Shown: positions 3,639-9,649 of the stretch, in pieces
How positions within the stretch are numbered: the first letter of the stretch is position 1
How the letters are laid out: each line of letters begins with the position of its first letter
Assembly: GCA_019114205.1 (NCBI GenBank)
Contig: DXFY01000016.1
Span: 1-64,000, forward strand
Direction: 5' to 3'
Source of the DNA: Candidatus Tidjanibacter gallistercoris
GTDB taxonomy: Bacteria > Bacteroidota > Bacteroidia > Bacteroidales > Rikenellaceae
DNA length: 64,000 nt
Program-made: the position numbers and the translations under genes
Notes under the pieces: generated by a model
Database searches by the model: none
Told to the model about the DNA's origin: nothing
The model's input: the letters and a program-made list of their open reading frames with translations, nothing else

Positions 3639-3670
3639 TTTTGAAATTCCGTCGGAATGCCTTAACTTTG
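3639..3670 (+). promoter_or_regulatory. Promoter of the pyr operon
   Basis: A near-perfect Bacteroidetes sigma-ABfr promoter: TTTTG at 3639-3643, a 19-bp spacer, then TAACTTTG (TAnnTTTG) at 3663-3670. Transcription should begin a few bases downstream (about 3676), giving a leader of roughly 205 nt before pyrC that contains a small ORF and an intrinsic terminator. Confidence 0.8.
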
Positions 3671-3697
3671 TCCCAATTTAAGCGATACGAAAACGAG

Positions 3698-3799
3698 ATG
3701 ACGGGAAAGGAGAACGACAGACGGATGGAAAACGGTACCAGGAACTTTTTCACCGGTCGTGCAATCGCCGTTTCCCTCATCGTTCCCGATAATCTTTAG
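3698..3799 (+). CDS. Candidate pyr-operon leader peptide (33 aa)
   Basis: A short ORF (ATG at 3698-3700, TAG at 3797-3799) sits inside the transcript driven by the promoter at 3639. The peptide begins MTGKENDRRM and ends AVSLIVPDNL. Its stop codon overlaps the 5' arm of the terminator hairpin at 3798-3818, so a ribosome reaching the stop would mask the arm. This geometry recalls the translation-coupled attenuators of enterobacterial pyrBI and pyrE, where UTP-dependent RNA polymerase pausing lets the ribosome catch up. A U5 run (3746-3750), a possible pause site, lies about 50 nt before the hairpin. I do not recognise the peptide, and translation is inferred. Confidence 0.5.
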   Translation: MTGKENDRRMENGTRNFFTGRAIAVSLIVPDNL

Positions 3800-3825
3800 G
3801 CAGCTGAACAGGCTGCCTTTTTTTT
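3798..3825 (+). terminator. Intrinsic terminator / putative attenuator in the pyr leader
   Basis: A perfect 7-bp stem AGGCAGC (3798-3804) and GCTGCCT (3812-3818) with a 7-nt loop is followed directly by a run of eight T (3818-3825). It lies between the pyr promoter and pyrC rather than after a gene, so it should act as a conditional terminator for the operon. The leader ORF stop codon overlaps its first base pairs. Confidence 0.75.
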
Positions 3826-3881
3826 GGGCCGGGTTTCCGTCGCTTCCGGAATCGAAGATTTTTATAAAAATATATCGGGTT

Positions 3882-5171
3882 ATGAAAATGCTGCTCAGAG
3901 GAGGTAACGTATATTCCGGCGGAGCGTTCCGGCGTGCCGATGTGCTGCTGGAGGATGGTCGGGTGGTCGCCGTGGGCGATGTGTCCGATGCGGGTGCCGA
4001 AGCGGTGGATGTGACCGGAAAACATGTGCTGCCGGGGTTGATAGACGTGCACGTGCATTTCCGCGAACCGGGATTCTCCTATAAGGAAACCATTGCGTCG
4101 GGCAGCCGTGCGGCGGCCCGCGGCGGATATACGACGGTGTGTACGATGCCCAACCTGAACCCGGCGCCCGATACGGCGGAGCAACTGGAGGTGCAGCTCG
4201 GCATGATACGGAACGAAGCCGTGGTGAAGGTCGTCCCCTACGGGACCATCACCATGCGTCAGAGCGGCGGCGGAGCGCTTTCGGACATGGAGGCCATGCG
4301 CGATGGGGTGGTCGGCTTTTCGGATGACGGGCGCGGCGTGCAGGAGGATGCCGTCATGGAGGCAGCCATGCGCGAGGCCGCCCGGCTGGGAAGGCCCGTC
4401 GTGGCCCATTGCGAGGTGAACGACCTGCTGCACGGCGGGTACATCCACGACGGGGAGTACGCACGCCTGCACGGTCATAAGGGCATCTGTTCCGAAAGCG
4501 AATGGCGGCAGGTGGCGCGCGACATCGAGCTCGTCCGCAGGACGGGGTGTCGCTATCATGTGTGCCACGTCTCCACGAAGGAGAGTGTGGAGCTCGTGCG
4601 CAGGGCCAAGGCCGAGGGACTGCCGGTAAGCTGCGAGACGGCGCCGCATTACCTCGTGCTGACCGACATGGATTTGCAGGAGGACGGACGTTTCAAAATG
4701 AACCCGCCCATCCGCAGCGCCGAAGACCGTGCTGCGCTTCTGGACGGCCTTCTGGACGGAACGATAGAGGTTATCGCAACCGACCATGCACCCCATTCGG
4801 CTGCGGAAAAGGCCAAAGGGCTCGCGGGAAGCGCATTCGGTATCGTGGGGCTGGAAACTTCGTTCCCGGTGCTTTATACCCGCCTCGTGCTGGAGGGCGT
4901 GCTGCCGCTCGAAAAGCTCGTGGAGTTGATGAGCGTGCGCCCCGGCAGGCTGTTCGGTCTGGGCGGAACCATCGAGCCGGGCGCTCCGGCCGACATCGCC
5001 GTCTTCGACCTCGGTGCGCGGTATCGGATAGAAAGCGCCGACTTCCTGTCGCAGGGGCATGCGACGCCGTTCGACGGCTGGGAAGTCCAGGGACGCAACG
5101 TGCTGACGCTCGCGGAGGGCCGACCGGTGTACCGCGACGCCTCGTTCGGAGGCAGCGGCATTGTTGCATAG
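3882..5171 (+). CDS. pyrC: Dihydroorotase (type I)
   Basis: Catalyses reversible cyclisation of N-carbamoyl-aspartate to dihydroorotate, step 3 of UMP synthesis. The amidohydrolase signatures are intact: the metal-binding DVHVHFREPG near residue 50, then VVAHCEVND, HVSTKES, ETAPHYLVLTD and EVIATDHAPHS with the catalytic Asp. Length is 429 residues, as in type I (Bacillus-like) dihydroorotases. I chose MKMLLRGGNV at 3882. The frame is open further upstream (to a GTG at 3759), but that would run through the terminator. It is the first gene of pyrC-K-D-F-E-B, 35 nt before pyrK, and is controlled by the leader/terminator at 3698-3825. Confidence 0.95.
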   Translation: MKMLLRGGNVYSGGAFRRADVLLEDGRVVAVGDVSDAGAEAVDVTGKHVLPGLIDVHVHFREPGFSYKETIASGSRAAARGGYTTVCTMPNLNPAPDTAEQLEVQLGMIRNEAVVKVVPYGTITMRQSGGGALSDMEAMRDGVVGFSDDGRGVQEDAVMEAAMREAARLGRPVVAHCEVNDLLHGGYIHDGEYARLHGHKGICSESEWRQVARDIELVRRTGCRYHVCHVSTKESVELVRRAKAEGLPVSCETAPHYLVLTDMDLQEDGRFKMNPPIRSAEDRAALLDGLLDGTIEVIATDHAPHSAAEKAKGLAGSAFGIVGLETSFPVLYTRLVLEGVLPLEKLVELMSVRPGRLFGLGGTIEPGAPADIAVFDLGARYRIESADFLSQGHATPFDGWEVQGRNVLTLAEGRPVYRDASFGGSGIVA

Positions 5172-5206: not shown

Positions 5207-5953
5207 ATGTATAAGAAAGGAATATACGGAATACGTTCGAACGAACCGCTGACGGAGACGGTCTGGCGGATGGTCGTGGAGGGCGACACGCAGTATTTGA
5301 CCGCACCGGGCCAGTTCGTGAACATCGAACTGCCGGGCAGATTTCTGCGCCGGCCCATATCGGTCTGCGATTACGACGGGCATACGATAACGCTTATATA
5401 TAAGGTAGTCGGCGAAGGTACCGCTCAGATGGCCCGCATGAGGCCGGGCGAATGCCTCGATATGCTGACCGGACTCGGCAACGGCTTCGCTGTCGGAGTG
5501 CCGTCGCGGCGGCCGCTGCTGGTCGGCGGCGGCGTGGGCGTACCCCCGCTTTACAACCTTGCGAAGAGGCTTTTGGCCGAAGGACGGCGGGTGTCGGTGG
5601 TGCTCGGTTTCAATACGGCGTCGGAAGTCTTCTATGCGGAGGAGTTCGAGGCGCTGGGAACCGATGTGACGGTCGCTACGGCGGACGGTTCGCGCGGCGT
5701 GCGCGGCTTCGTGACCGACGTGCTTGCGGACGGATGTACGGACTACGATTATGTATATGCCTGCGGTCCCATGCCGATGCTCCGTGCGCTGTCGGGCGCT
5801 GTCCGAGTGCCGGGGCAGTTCAGCTTCGAGGAGCGGATGGGGTGCGGCTTCGGCGGGTGCATGGGATGCAGCTGCCGCACGCGCAACGGCAGCAAGCGTA
5901 TCTGTAAGGAAGGCCCGGTGCTTACGACGGACGAAATCATATGGGAGGAATGA
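5207..5953 (+). CDS. pyrK: Dihydroorotate dehydrogenase B, electron-transfer subunit
   Basis: The FAD and 2Fe-2S subunit that passes electrons from PyrD to NAD+. The N-terminal FAD-binding barrel contains RRPISVCDY. A nucleotide-binding LLVGGGVGVPPLY and YACGPMPML follow, and near the C-terminus lies the cysteine cluster CGFGGCMGCSC followed by a fourth spaced Cys (KRICKEGPV), as in Lactococcus PyrK. At 248 residues the length is normal. Its stop overlaps the pyrD start by four bases (ATGA at 5950), so the two subunits are probably translationally coupled. Presence of pyrK makes PyrD the NAD-linked class 1B enzyme. Confidence 0.93.
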   Translation: MYKKGIYGIRSNEPLTETVWRMVVEGDTQYLTAPGQFVNIELPGRFLRRPISVCDYDGHTITLIYKVVGEGTAQMARMRPGECLDMLTGLGNGFAVGVPSRRPLLVGGGVGVPPLYNLAKRLLAEGRRVSVVLGFNTASEVFYAEEFEALGTDVTVATADGSRGVRGFVTDVLADGCTDYDYVYACGPMPMLRALSGAVRVPGQFSFEERMGCGFGGCMGCSCRTRNGSKRICKEGPVLTTDEIIWEE

Positions 5954-6897
5954 TGGACGCGAAAGAGAAACATACGGCGGCGGCCTGTGCTCCTGACCTG
6001 TCGGTGGAGCTGAGCGGGCTCCGGCTCGACAACCCCGTAATACCCGCCAGCGGTACGTTCGGCTTCGGGGCCGAATTCGCCGAATTTTACGACCTGAACG
6101 TGCTCGGTTCCTTTTCCTTCAAGGGGACTACGAAGGAGCCCCGGTTCGGGAACCCGACGCCCCGCATCGCGGAGTGTACCGAAGGGATGATAAATGCCGT
6201 GGGACTCCAGAATCCCGGCATCGACGCCGTGATTGAGGAGGAGCTGCCGCGTATCGCCCGGATATTCCGCAAACCGGTGGTGGCCAACATCAGCGGGTTT
6301 TCGGTGGAGGACTATGCCTACTGCTGCGAGAAAATCGATGCGCAGGAGCAGGTGGGCATCATCGAGGTGAACATCAGCTGTCCCAACGTGAAGCACGGCG
6401 GAATGAGTTTCGGGACGGTGCCCGAAAGCGCCTACGAAGTGACCAGGGCGGTGAAGGCCGTCACCTCCAAACCCGTGTATATGAAACTGAGCCCTAACGT
6501 GACGGACATCGTAGCGATAGCCAGGGCGTGCGAAGAGGGCGGGGCGGACGGCCTGACGCTCATCAATACGCTGCTGGGCATGCGCATCGACCTGCGCACG
6601 CGCAGGCCCGTCATCGCCAATACGATGGGCGGATTTTCGGGCCCGGCCATTTTCCCGGTGGCGCTGCGCATGGTCTATCAGGTGGCCAAAGCGTGCCGGA
6701 TACCGGTCATGGGATGCGGCGGCGTGGCGACAGCCCGCGATGTCATCGAGATGATGATGGCCGGTGCGACGGCGGTGCAGGTGGGGGCCGAGAACCTGCG
6801 CAACCCGTATGCCTGCAAGGAAATTATCGAAGCGCTGCCGGCCGAAATGGAGCGGCTGGGCATCGCCCGACTGCGGGACATCGTCGGAGTGGCCTGA
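5950..6897 (+). CDS. pyrD: Dihydroorotate dehydrogenase B, catalytic subunit (class 1B)
   Basis: Oxidises dihydroorotate to orotate using FMN. The TIM-barrel shows PASGTFGFG, the substrate loop [22 protein letters not shown] with the catalytic Cys of class 1 enzymes, MKLSPNVTD, and the FMN phosphate site [11 protein letters not shown] plus AGATAVQVG. The start is uncertain: ATG codons occur at 5941, 5950 and 5953. A Shine-Dalgarno-like GGGAGGA precedes the last two, and 5950 gives the ATGA overlap with pyrK, so I prefer it. A short N-terminal extension of about 15 residues is present with either choice. Confidence 0.93.
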
Positions 6898-6977
6898 GGG
6901 ACGGACATGCGGCCGGAATGCGGGCCGCCTGGCGGAACGGAAGACAAGGATTGAAAAGCAATACAGACAGAACGAAA

Positions 6978-7679
6978 ATGACTAAAGACGTGATTATCGC
7001 GTGCGACTTTCCGGGCGCGAAGGAGACTTTCCGGTTTCTCGACCTGTTCACGCAGGAGAAACCTTTCCTGAAAATCGGCATGGAACTCTTTTATGCGGAG
7101 GGGCCCTCGATTGTGAGGGAAATTAAGCGGCGCGGCCACCGCATCTTCCTCGACCTGAAGCTGCACGACATTCCCAATACGGTGAAGAAGGCGATGGCGG
7201 TGCTCGCGCAGCTGGATGTGGATATGACCAACGTCCATGCGGCGGGAACCATCGACATGATGCGTGCCGCACTGGAGGGGCTCACCCGTCCGGACGGTAG
7301 CCGTCCGCTGCTCATCGCCGTGACGCAGCTCACCTCCACCAGCGAGGAGCGCATGCAGCGCGAATTGCTCATCGGAGCGCCGATAAACGATACCATCGTG
7401 CAGTATGCCCGCAATGCGCGGGAGGCGGGGCTCGACGGCGTGGTATGCTCGCCGCTCGAAGCCGGCATGGTGAAGGAGGCGTGCGGAAGCGGTTTTCTGA
7501 CCGTGACGCCGGGCGTCCGTTTCGCCGACGGGGAGAAGGGCGACCAGGTGCGCGTCACCACACCGGCGCGTGCCGCCGAAATCGGTACGGACTATATCGT
7601 GGTTGGGCGTCCCATCACGGAGGCGGCCGACCCGGTGGGAGCATACCGCCGGTGCGTGAAGGAATTCATGATGTCCTGA
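6978..7679 (+). CDS. pyrF: Orotidine 5'-phosphate decarboxylase (short form)
   Basis: Decarboxylates OMP to UMP. The 233-residue protein starts [11 protein letters not shown] and carries the catalytic D-x-K-x-x-D signature in [12 protein letters not shown], then VHAAGT, VTQLTS, a [11 protein letters not shown] phosphate loop and IVVGRPIT. This is the short Bacillus/E. coli-type enzyme, not the roughly 270-residue form that I recall as common in Bacteroides. Long frames running through pyrD in another phase and joining this gene are artefacts. It lies 80 nt after pyrD and 57 nt before pyrE in the same operon. Confidence 0.93.
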
Positions 7680-7736
7680 GATGCGGCGGCCGGAACGGAC
7701 CCGAACTTGAAAATATATTAAAACCGACAGAAAGAC

Positions 7737-8465
7737 ATGGATTTGGCTTTGGAAATGGAGCAAAAAACGACCGACGGCGCCGGATGCTGCTGCCAGGCAG
7801 CCGTGCGGAACGGCGAACTGAAAGAACTCGAACGACAGATAGCGAAAGACCTCCTTTCGATAGGGGCGGTCTTCCTCAGACCGGAAGAGCCCTTTACGTG
7901 GGCGAGCGGAATAAAGAGTCCGATTTACTGCGACAACCGTCTGACGCTGACGGCCCCCCGCGTCAGAGACCACATCGAGGCAGGACTCGCCCGCGTGGTG
8001 AAGGAGCTATACCCCGAATGCGAGGTGCTGATGGGCACGAGCACCGCTGGTATCGCGCATGCGGCCATTACGGCCACGCTGCTCGACCTGCCGATGGGAT
8101 ACGTCCGCGGAAACGCCAAAGACCATGGCCGTACGAATCAGATAGAGGGTCGGCTCGAACCGGGGCAGAAGGTGGTGGTCATCGAGGACCTTATCTCTAC
8201 GGGCGACAGCTGCATCGAGGTGGTTCGGGTGCTGCGGGCCGCCGGTGCGGAAGTGCTCGGCGTGGCCAGCATCTTTACCTACGGCATGCAGACCGGTCTC
8301 GAACACCTGCGCGACGCACAGGTGCGGAACCACAGCCTGTCCAATTTCGACACGCTCGTCGGGGTGGCGGCCGAGAACGGCTATATCCGTCCGGAGGACA
8401 TCCGGCGGCTCGTAGCCTTCCGCGACAATCCCCGCGACGAATCGTGGATTGCGTCCTCCCGGTAG
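7737..8465 (+). CDS. pyrE: Orotate phosphoribosyltransferase
   Basis: Joins orotate to PRPP to form OMP. Key elements are FTWASGIKSPIYCDNR, the dimer-loop segment VRGNAKDHGRTNQIEG and the PRPP-binding VVVIEDLISTGDSC (acidic pair followed by TG). The protein is 242 residues with an N-terminal extension of about 30 residues that includes three consecutive Cys (GCCCQ), longer than the typical 210-residue enzyme. An internal ATG at 7755 would shorten it slightly. It sits between pyrF and pyrB. Confidence 0.93.
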   Translation: MDLALEMEQKTTDGAGCCCQAAVRNGELKELERQIAKDLLSIGAVFLRPEEPFTWASGIKSPIYCDNRLTLTAPRVRDHIEAGLARVVKELYPECEVLMGTSTAGIAHAAITATLLDLPMGYVRGNAKDHGRTNQIEGRLEPGQKVVVIEDLISTGDSCIEVVRVLRAAGAEVLGVASIFTYGMQTGLEHLRDAQVRNHSLSNFDTLVGVAAENGYIRPEDIRRLVAFRDNPRDESWIASSR

Positions 8466-8563
8466 CCGTTCTCGCGGCACGGAATACCGATGCGGGCCGC
8501 CGGCATGCGGGCGGCGACATGAAAAAGATTATCAGTACCCATAACACATAAAACAGGTTTATT

Positions 8564-9649
8564 ATGCATCATCTTATCGACATCACCGACCTGAGCATGC
8601 AGGAATTGCAGGAGATTATCGATCTCGCGCTCGACATCATCGCAGACCGTCCGGCCTACACCGAAAGATGCAAGAACAAGACGCTGGCTACCCTATTCTA
8701 CGAACCGAGTACGCGCACCCGCCTCAGCTTCGAGGCCGCGATGCTCGAACTCGGCGGTAATGTCCTCGGATTCTCGGATGCAAGCACCTCCTCGGTGACG
8801 AAAGGGGAGTCGCTTGCCGATACCATAATGACCATCAACAAGTTCGCCGACATCATCGCCATGCGCCACCCCAAAGACGGCGCTCCGCTCGTGGCGTCGC
8901 GCGTGACCGACATACCGATTATCAACGGCGGCGACGGTTCGCACTGCCACCCGACGCAGACGCTCGCCGACCTGCTGACCATCAAGCGCGAAATGCGCCG
9001 TCTGGATAACCTCGTCATCGGTATGTGCGGCGACCTGAAGTTCGGCCGGACGGTGCATTCGCTCACGAAGGCCATGATGCGTTACGACAACATCCGCTTC
9101 GTGATGATATCGCCCGACGAACTCCGCATGCCGGAGCACGTGCTCGAAGAACTGCGCGAGGCGGGCATCCCGTACACCGAGGTGCGGGATATGGAGAGCG
9201 TGATGCCGGAGCTCGACATCCTCTACATGACGCGCGTACAGCGGGAACGTTTCGATGACCCGGCGGTATACGAGGCGCTCAAAGATACCTACATCCTCGA
9301 TGCGGAGAAGATGAAACTCGCCAAGAAGAACATGGCCGTCCTGCACCCGCTGCCCCGCGTGAACGAAATCGCCGTGGAGGTGGACAAGGACCCGCGTGCC
9401 GCATACTTCCGCGAGGTGGAAAACGGCAAGTTCATGCGTATGGCCCTTATCTGCAAACTGTTCGAATGGGAAAACAAGCGCATGGAGAATCCGCAGCTCG
9501 CAGGAGTGGTCGAGAATCCGCAGAGCGTGAAGTGCCCCAACAAGCGCTGCATCTGCAACTCGGAGAACGTACCCCAGCTCATGCGTCCCGTCGAGGGAGA
9601 ACAGGGTGCGTACCGCTGCGCATACTGCGAAACGTTGATTAAGGAGTAG
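8564..9649 (+). CDS. pyrB: Aspartate carbamoyltransferase catalytic chain with fused PyrI-type zinc-binding tail
   Basis: Condenses carbamoyl phosphate with aspartate, the committed step of pyrimidine synthesis. The first 305 or so residues are a complete catalytic chain: the carbamoyl-phosphate loop [13 protein letters not shown], the mobile loop with [33 protein letters not shown] and [11 protein letters not shown]. Instead of ending there it continues about 50 residues into a zinc-ribbon-like module with Cys324, Cys329, Cys352 and Cys355 (CPNKRC ... RCAYC). This is the Cys pattern of the zinc domain of the regulatory chain PyrI, but the nucleotide-binding allosteric domain is absent, and no separate pyrI occurs nearby. 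It is the last gene of the pyr operon, followed by a terminator. Confidence 0.93.

Follow-up and report, generated by a model that had tools for sequence, protein, structure and literature searches.

A putative ribosome-coupled attenuator with a predicted start-codon lock before the pyrimidine operon of Tidjanibacter and its relatives

The region upstream of pyrC in Candidatus Tidjanibacter gallistercoris is probably a ribosome-coupled attenuator that controls the pyrimidine operon and can lock the translation of its own leader. A sequence-only reading of the window (the whole stretch of 64,000 nucleotides analysed here) had proposed a translation-coupled attenuator at this place. We found support for this proposal, as the leader ORF, the position of its stop codon and the hairpin are kept before pyrC. 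That reading overlooked a third element, a conserved complementarity over long range by which the last ~45 nt of the leader ORF are predicted to pair with the ORF's initiation region. We give about an even chance to a kinetic, initiation-gated version of the attenuator, in which the start would stay open until the polymerase reaches the terminator, the ORF's own U-rich tail would then lock it, and UTP would set the time window. The elements of the locus are the following:

3640-3670, + strand: Bacteroidota-type promoter, with a -33-like TTTG at 3640-3643 and a -7 box, TAACTTTG, at 3663-3670 (from the sequence, the relatives and the consensus in PMC7366714)
3684-3718, core 3692-3710, + strand: predicted 5' arm of the lock helix, covering the initiation region and the AUG (from folding and family statistics)
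3698-3799, + strand: leader ORF of 33 codons plus TAG at 3797-3799 (from the sequence and the relatives)
3756-3794, core 3768-3784, + strand: predicted 3' arm of the lock helix, in the distal third of the ORF (from folding)
3761-3796, + strand: U-enriched distal ORF, candidate region of UTP-sensitive pausing (from base composition)
3798-3825, + strand: intrinsic terminator, a hairpin at 3798-3818 followed by a T run (-13.7 kcal/mol; kept before pyrC with altered stem sequences)
3882-5171, + strand: pyrC, dihydroorotase, first gene of the operon (NF006837, 530.7 bits; TIGR00857 above cut-off)
5207-9649, + strand: pyrK, pyrD, pyrF, pyrE and pyrB (profile matches)

The coordinates given earlier for the promoter, the ORF, the overlap of stop codon and terminator, and the layout upstream of pyrC were all reproduced when the sequence was re-read. 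Both promoter boxes fit the Bacteroides consensus, TTTG / TAnnTTTG (PMC7366714), and TAnnTTTG was found in the relatives at the same place as in the window; a sigma-70 scan is unsuited to this phylum. Transcription would start at about 3675, 5 nt past the -7 box. Given this start site, the 5'UTR of the ORF is 23 nt long, the most frequent length in Bacteroides thetaiotaomicron mRNAs (PMC7366714). The hairpin consists of 8 pairs (7 Watson-Crick and one U-G) with a GAACA loop, and the T run extends to 3825. The first two bases of the hairpin are overlapped by the stop codon, and the ATG of pyrC follows at 3882.

By itself, the terminator was within chance expectation, with 4 found and 4.2 expected from shuffles. 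The composite arrangement is beyond chance. Defined as TAnnTTTG, ATG, ORF and a stop at the terminator stem, it occurred once in the 64-kb window, both strands included, and in 14 related loci (~185 kb) it was found only before pyrC, in 10 of the 14. Inspection of the sequence revealed no leader before upp, and there was none near pyrG within the window.

The genes of the operon, in the order pyrC-pyrK-pyrD-pyrF-pyrE-pyrB, serve de novo pyrimidine synthesis; the Alistipes operon has the order pyrC-carA-carB. Seven near-complete Tidjanibacter genomes (the window's own, G000, and G001, G004, G005, G007, G014 and G015) gave no match above cut-off to either subunit of carbamoyl-phosphate synthase (carA, carB), all with the remainder of the pyrimidine operon, and carAB adjoins pyrC in the relatives G010, G012, G013, G016 and G017. 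In PyrB (8564-9649), the C-terminal residues 312-360 match the end of PyrI, its zinc-domain part; the protein joins catalytic and regulatory portions but lacks the nucleotide-binding domain. The PyrC proteins of Tidjanibacter and Alistipes share ~60% identity with Clostridia proteins and only ~30% with other Bacteroidales PyrC, which suggests horizontal transfer. Outside these genera, this kind of pyrC was found mainly in Clostridia, and the arrangement was not visible to the eye in a dozen Clostridia pyrC upstream regions. The other Rikenellaceae genera gave only distant pyrC matches.

For the comparison across relatives, 87 upstream regions of this pyrC type were used: 23 from Tidjanibacter, 60 from Alistipes (genus g148) and 4 others, one of which (L056) is a duplicate of L275. 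The Tidjanibacter sample comprises all 23 genomes of the genus, which we take to belong to the family Rikenellaceae. The arrangement before pyrC was kept in 23/23 Tidjanibacter genomes, and an automatic test detected it in 76 of the 87 loci. Once the loci were inspected by hand, a promoter-proximal ORF was recognized in 86 of them, L255 being the exception; some of the hand-inspected leaders had a GTG start or an ORF continuing through the hairpin. Two automatic picks (L057 and L284) were wrong and were removed, which left 74 leaders for statistics. In these, the start codon lay 9-34 nt past the -7 box, the ORF had 26-49 codons, and the stop was positioned from -10 to +13 nt relative to the stem start. 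A stop at the stem was present in the frame of the ORF in 74/74 by selection, and in the other two, unselected frames in only 1/74 and 4/74. The upstream gene order varied among the relatives, and the leader remained with pyrC. The comparative check thus bore out that the ORF, the place of its stop and the hairpin are all retained before pyrC, although the stem sequence varies (62 distinct sequences in 76 loci).

Two variants of the leader were noted. One Tidjanibacter clade (L010, L012, L013, L014, L017, L020 and L023) has an inverted repeat, GCAAAT...ATTTGC, around the leader start codon. In L275 (= L056), a 78-codon leader ORF crosses the terminator and has a stop codon that overlaps with the start region of pyrC (TCATGAGC), a geometry like that of pyrL in Escherichia coli.

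Synonymous substitution had been expected as the signature of the ORF, and this expectation failed. The pN/pS ratio was 0.65 over 14 independent pairs, with 1.00 and 0.84 out of frame, and the pair formed by the window and its closest relative (L002/L003) gave 1.43. Purifying selection on the leader peptide was weak, and the preference of changes for third codon positions was not significant (p 0.47). These ratios indicate that translation and the stop position matter, and that the peptide does not. The peptide sequence is under hardly any constraint, and the leaders instead retain their start, their length, a stop placed at the hairpin, the hairpin itself and a U-rich end. No run of codons for a regulating amino acid and no motif shared between clades was found in the leader peptides. 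The motif FWQQDYWSG occurs mid-ORF in L240-L258 and similar Alistipes leaders, where it is maintained mostly via synonymous changes; it could have a role as peptide or as RNA.

Toward its end, the ORF becomes rich in U. Over the 74 leaders, U made up 0.21-0.25 of the first half of the ORF; counted from the stem, its fraction was 0.39 between -30 and -16 and 0.56 between -15 and -1. Among two-fold codons, the share of NNT climbed from 0.52 to 0.76 in the same direction, so the enrichment does not come from amino-acid choice alone. It is milder in the window, with 33% U in the last 36 nt and 10% in the first 48 nt. A U5 run at 3746-3750 had been put forward as the pause site. This run is present in the window, but it is not a general feature, and conserved U-richness is found in the ~45 nt that precede the hairpin. 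The U-rich ends could also be there for pairing with the A-rich start region, instead of for UTP sensing.

This pairing was seen throughout the family. Minimum-energy folds contained at least 10 pairs between the ORF end and the start region in 72/74 leaders. Pairing of the 3' arm was most frequent between -23 and -15, relative to the stem. When ORF ends were exchanged between leaders of one genus, the duplex energy changed from -22.1 (native) to -17.0 kcal/mol (swapped), with a permutation p of 0.0002 in each genus, and the effect held separately for the 5'UTR and for the first codons. Dinucleotide shuffling of the ORF end gave a mean z of -1.30, compared with controls of +0.58 for the ORF middle, +0.17 for pyrC's own start and +0.17 for the reversed start region. 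Because the leaders are related and not fully independent, the permutation and Mann-Whitney p values overstate, and a test by sequence clusters (shared 8-mers) is fairer; it gave negative values in 40 of 43 clusters (p 4e-11). When synonymous codons were redrawn with the same usage, pairing became weaker in 65/74 leaders (z -1.36), an excess which points to selection acting on the RNA. The pairing of the ORF end with the start thus appears to be selected, beyond the composition, swap and synonymous-codon nulls. RNAalifold on MAFFT alignments recovered little besides the terminator, since these alignments fail to bring the 5' arm into register, and for this reason the alignment-free swap and shuffle tests were used.

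Folding of growing transcripts placed the closing of the start codon late in the ORF. The predicted AUG opening energy was 3.6-4.2 kcal/mol for RNA ends 70 to 40 nt before the stem, and then 5.0 at -30, 6.4 at -20 and 10.2 kcal/mol at -10. It rose in 71 of the 74 leaders, and the rise over the last 50 nt was 6.31, compared with 0.12 in 100 control genes (p 2e-24). In the window, it was 1.4 kcal/mol for an RNA ending at 3766 and 13.3 kcal/mol for one ending at 3784. For the window leader alone, an opening energy of 10.7 vs 6.9 kcal/mol was not significant, 30 of 300 shuffles being as high, and the claim of a lock therefore rests on the family.

In the proposed mechanism, the polymerase would start near 3675 and soon expose an unstructured initiation site of the ORF. 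A ribosome that has loaded and stays close behind would end on the stop codon and cover the base of the hairpin, no terminator would form, and the operon would be transcribed. If no ribosome has loaded by the emergence of the last ~45 nt, this stretch would pair with the initiation region and shut the AUG, and the terminator would form unopposed. The lock would be a deadline for ribosome loading, and the U-rich end of the ORF would tie the time window to UTP. At low UTP, the polymerase would be slowed while the start codon is open, resulting in read-through; at high UTP, it would pass, the RNA would lock, and transcription would terminate. The order and timing of the opening and closing of the start codon are predictions of the folding model. 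Three further points are our inference: the ribosome would keep this hairpin from forming, the lock would operate in vivo, and the signal would be UTP or pyrimidine supply. In E. coli, an intrinsic terminator that follows a stop codon by a few bp hardly acts during translation of the ORF, and it is fully functional again beyond ~27 nt from the stop (PMC4824070). Our literature search found no direct demonstration of transcription-translation coupling in Bacteroidota.

The leader resembles that of E. coli pyrBI (pyrL) in its anatomy: a pyrimidine operon, a short translatable leader ORF, a U-rich stretch (weaker in the window) and a terminator before the first gene, which translation should suppress (PMC10135430). 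The polymerase on pyrL runs ahead and terminates when UTP is abundant; when UTP is scarce, it pauses, so that the ribosome prevents the hairpin (PMC10135430). The pyrL ORF, however, extends through the terminator to within 3 nt of pyrB, whereas the Rikenellaceae ORF ends at the hairpin base, and only a few Alistipes leaders run through the terminator. The start-codon lock also differs, being significant in the Rikenellaceae family but not in pyrL, where the opening energy was large but within the shuffles (15/100). The Shine-Dalgarno region of the E. coli K-12 pyrL (L299) was predicted to pair with a pyrimidine tract, UCUUCCCG, not beyond shuffles. The first gene and the phylum differ as well, and there is no evident sequence relation. 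Given the read-through geometry of pyrL and its lack of a significant lock, the Rikenellaceae leader is best described as pyrBI/pyrE-like in its presumed working, by analogy, and not as a homologue. In the E. coli pyrE attenuator (rph-pyrE), the stop codon of the translated ORF adjoins the terminator stem; this ORF is a full gene, rph, and not a dedicated leader.

Other known attenuators were also compared. The Bacteroid-trp leader (RF01692) is likewise a candidate RNA of a Bacteroidetes biosynthetic operon (PMC2864571), but it belongs to another operon, and the window had no Rfam match to it. Rfam searches at gathering and relaxed thresholds gave nothing convincing; weak matches to isrD, suhB and ncS54, below cut-off, are probably the terminator itself. 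The PyrR attenuator of Firmicutes (RF00515) controls pyr operons by attenuation too, but it requires PyrR and a conserved binding loop. It was rejected, as no PyrR was found above cut-off in the 23 genomes and RF00515 was unmatched. The lack of a codon run for a regulating amino acid speaks against an amino-acid leader-peptide attenuator.

We weighed four other explanations of the locus. In a plain attenuator of the pyrBI/pyrE type, the ribosome would act at the stop, pausing would be UTP-sensitive, and the long-range pairing would have no role of its own. The anatomy and the U-rich end would suffice for it (PMC10135430), E. coli pyrL has no significant lock, and neither has the window leader taken alone. 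Even so, we consider it unlikely: over 43 clusters, the pairing is stronger than in the dinucleotide, swap and synonymous-codon nulls, and the AUG closes at one defined place, unlike in the 100 control genes. If the long-range helix were instead a pause hairpin, formed behind the polymerase and holding it within the U-rich tract so that it falls into step with the ribosome, the pairing of the 3' arm at -23 to -15 would place the polymerase in the U-rich last 15 nt. Such a hairpin would have a loop spanning some tens of nt, its 5' arm covers the initiation site and would block the very ribosome that is awaited, and the pause in E. coli pyrL is unresponsive to NusA and to compensatory hairpin mutations (PMC9291695); all this makes a pause hairpin very unlikely.

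The signal could also be sensed by the leader peptide, responding to an amino acid or a stalling ligand (trp/his or TnaC-type) and not to UTP. For amino-acid operons of Flavobacterium, attenuation by leader peptides has been proposed (PMC9723704), and the retention of FWQQDYWSG in one Alistipes group, with largely synonymous changes, would agree with it. With no single-codon run, no cross-clade motif and a near-neutral pN/pS in both the family and the window pair, we regard peptide sensing as highly improbable. Finally, terminator-like sites are common, and the one before pyrC might be there by chance, belonging to an ordinary small gene or to the gene upstream. This scarcely credible reading was already disfavoured: the leader stays with pyrC despite a differing upstream gene order, its peptide is not conserved, and its stop is at or inside the hairpin.

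Leaders of a similar kind were found elsewhere in the order. A scan of the pyrB upstream regions in 108 other Bacteroidales flagged 10 in which an ORF stops at a terminator. At least six of these, from other families, look like leaders (L133, L134, L166, L217, L218 and L234), and of these six only L217 had the lock. Pyrimidine attenuation may therefore have arisen more than once in the Bacteroidales. Short ORFs have been noted in long 5'UTRs of B. thetaiotaomicron (PMC7366714). The sequence-only reading knew of no described pyr attenuator of this type in Bacteroidota, and we found no report of one in the open-licence literature either, which leaves room for a report outside it.

If the preferred reading of a ribosome-coupled attenuator with a lock is true, ribosome-coupled nucleotide-sensing attenuation, discovered in the enterobacteria, would exist also in the distant phylum Bacteroidota, and transcription-translation coupling would be implied there. 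To our knowledge, textbook attenuators do not have a lock step; here, the signal would be the loading of a ribosome in time, and not its position alone. As the design needs neither a protein regulator nor a ligand pocket, it should be easily moved and tuned in Bacteroides.
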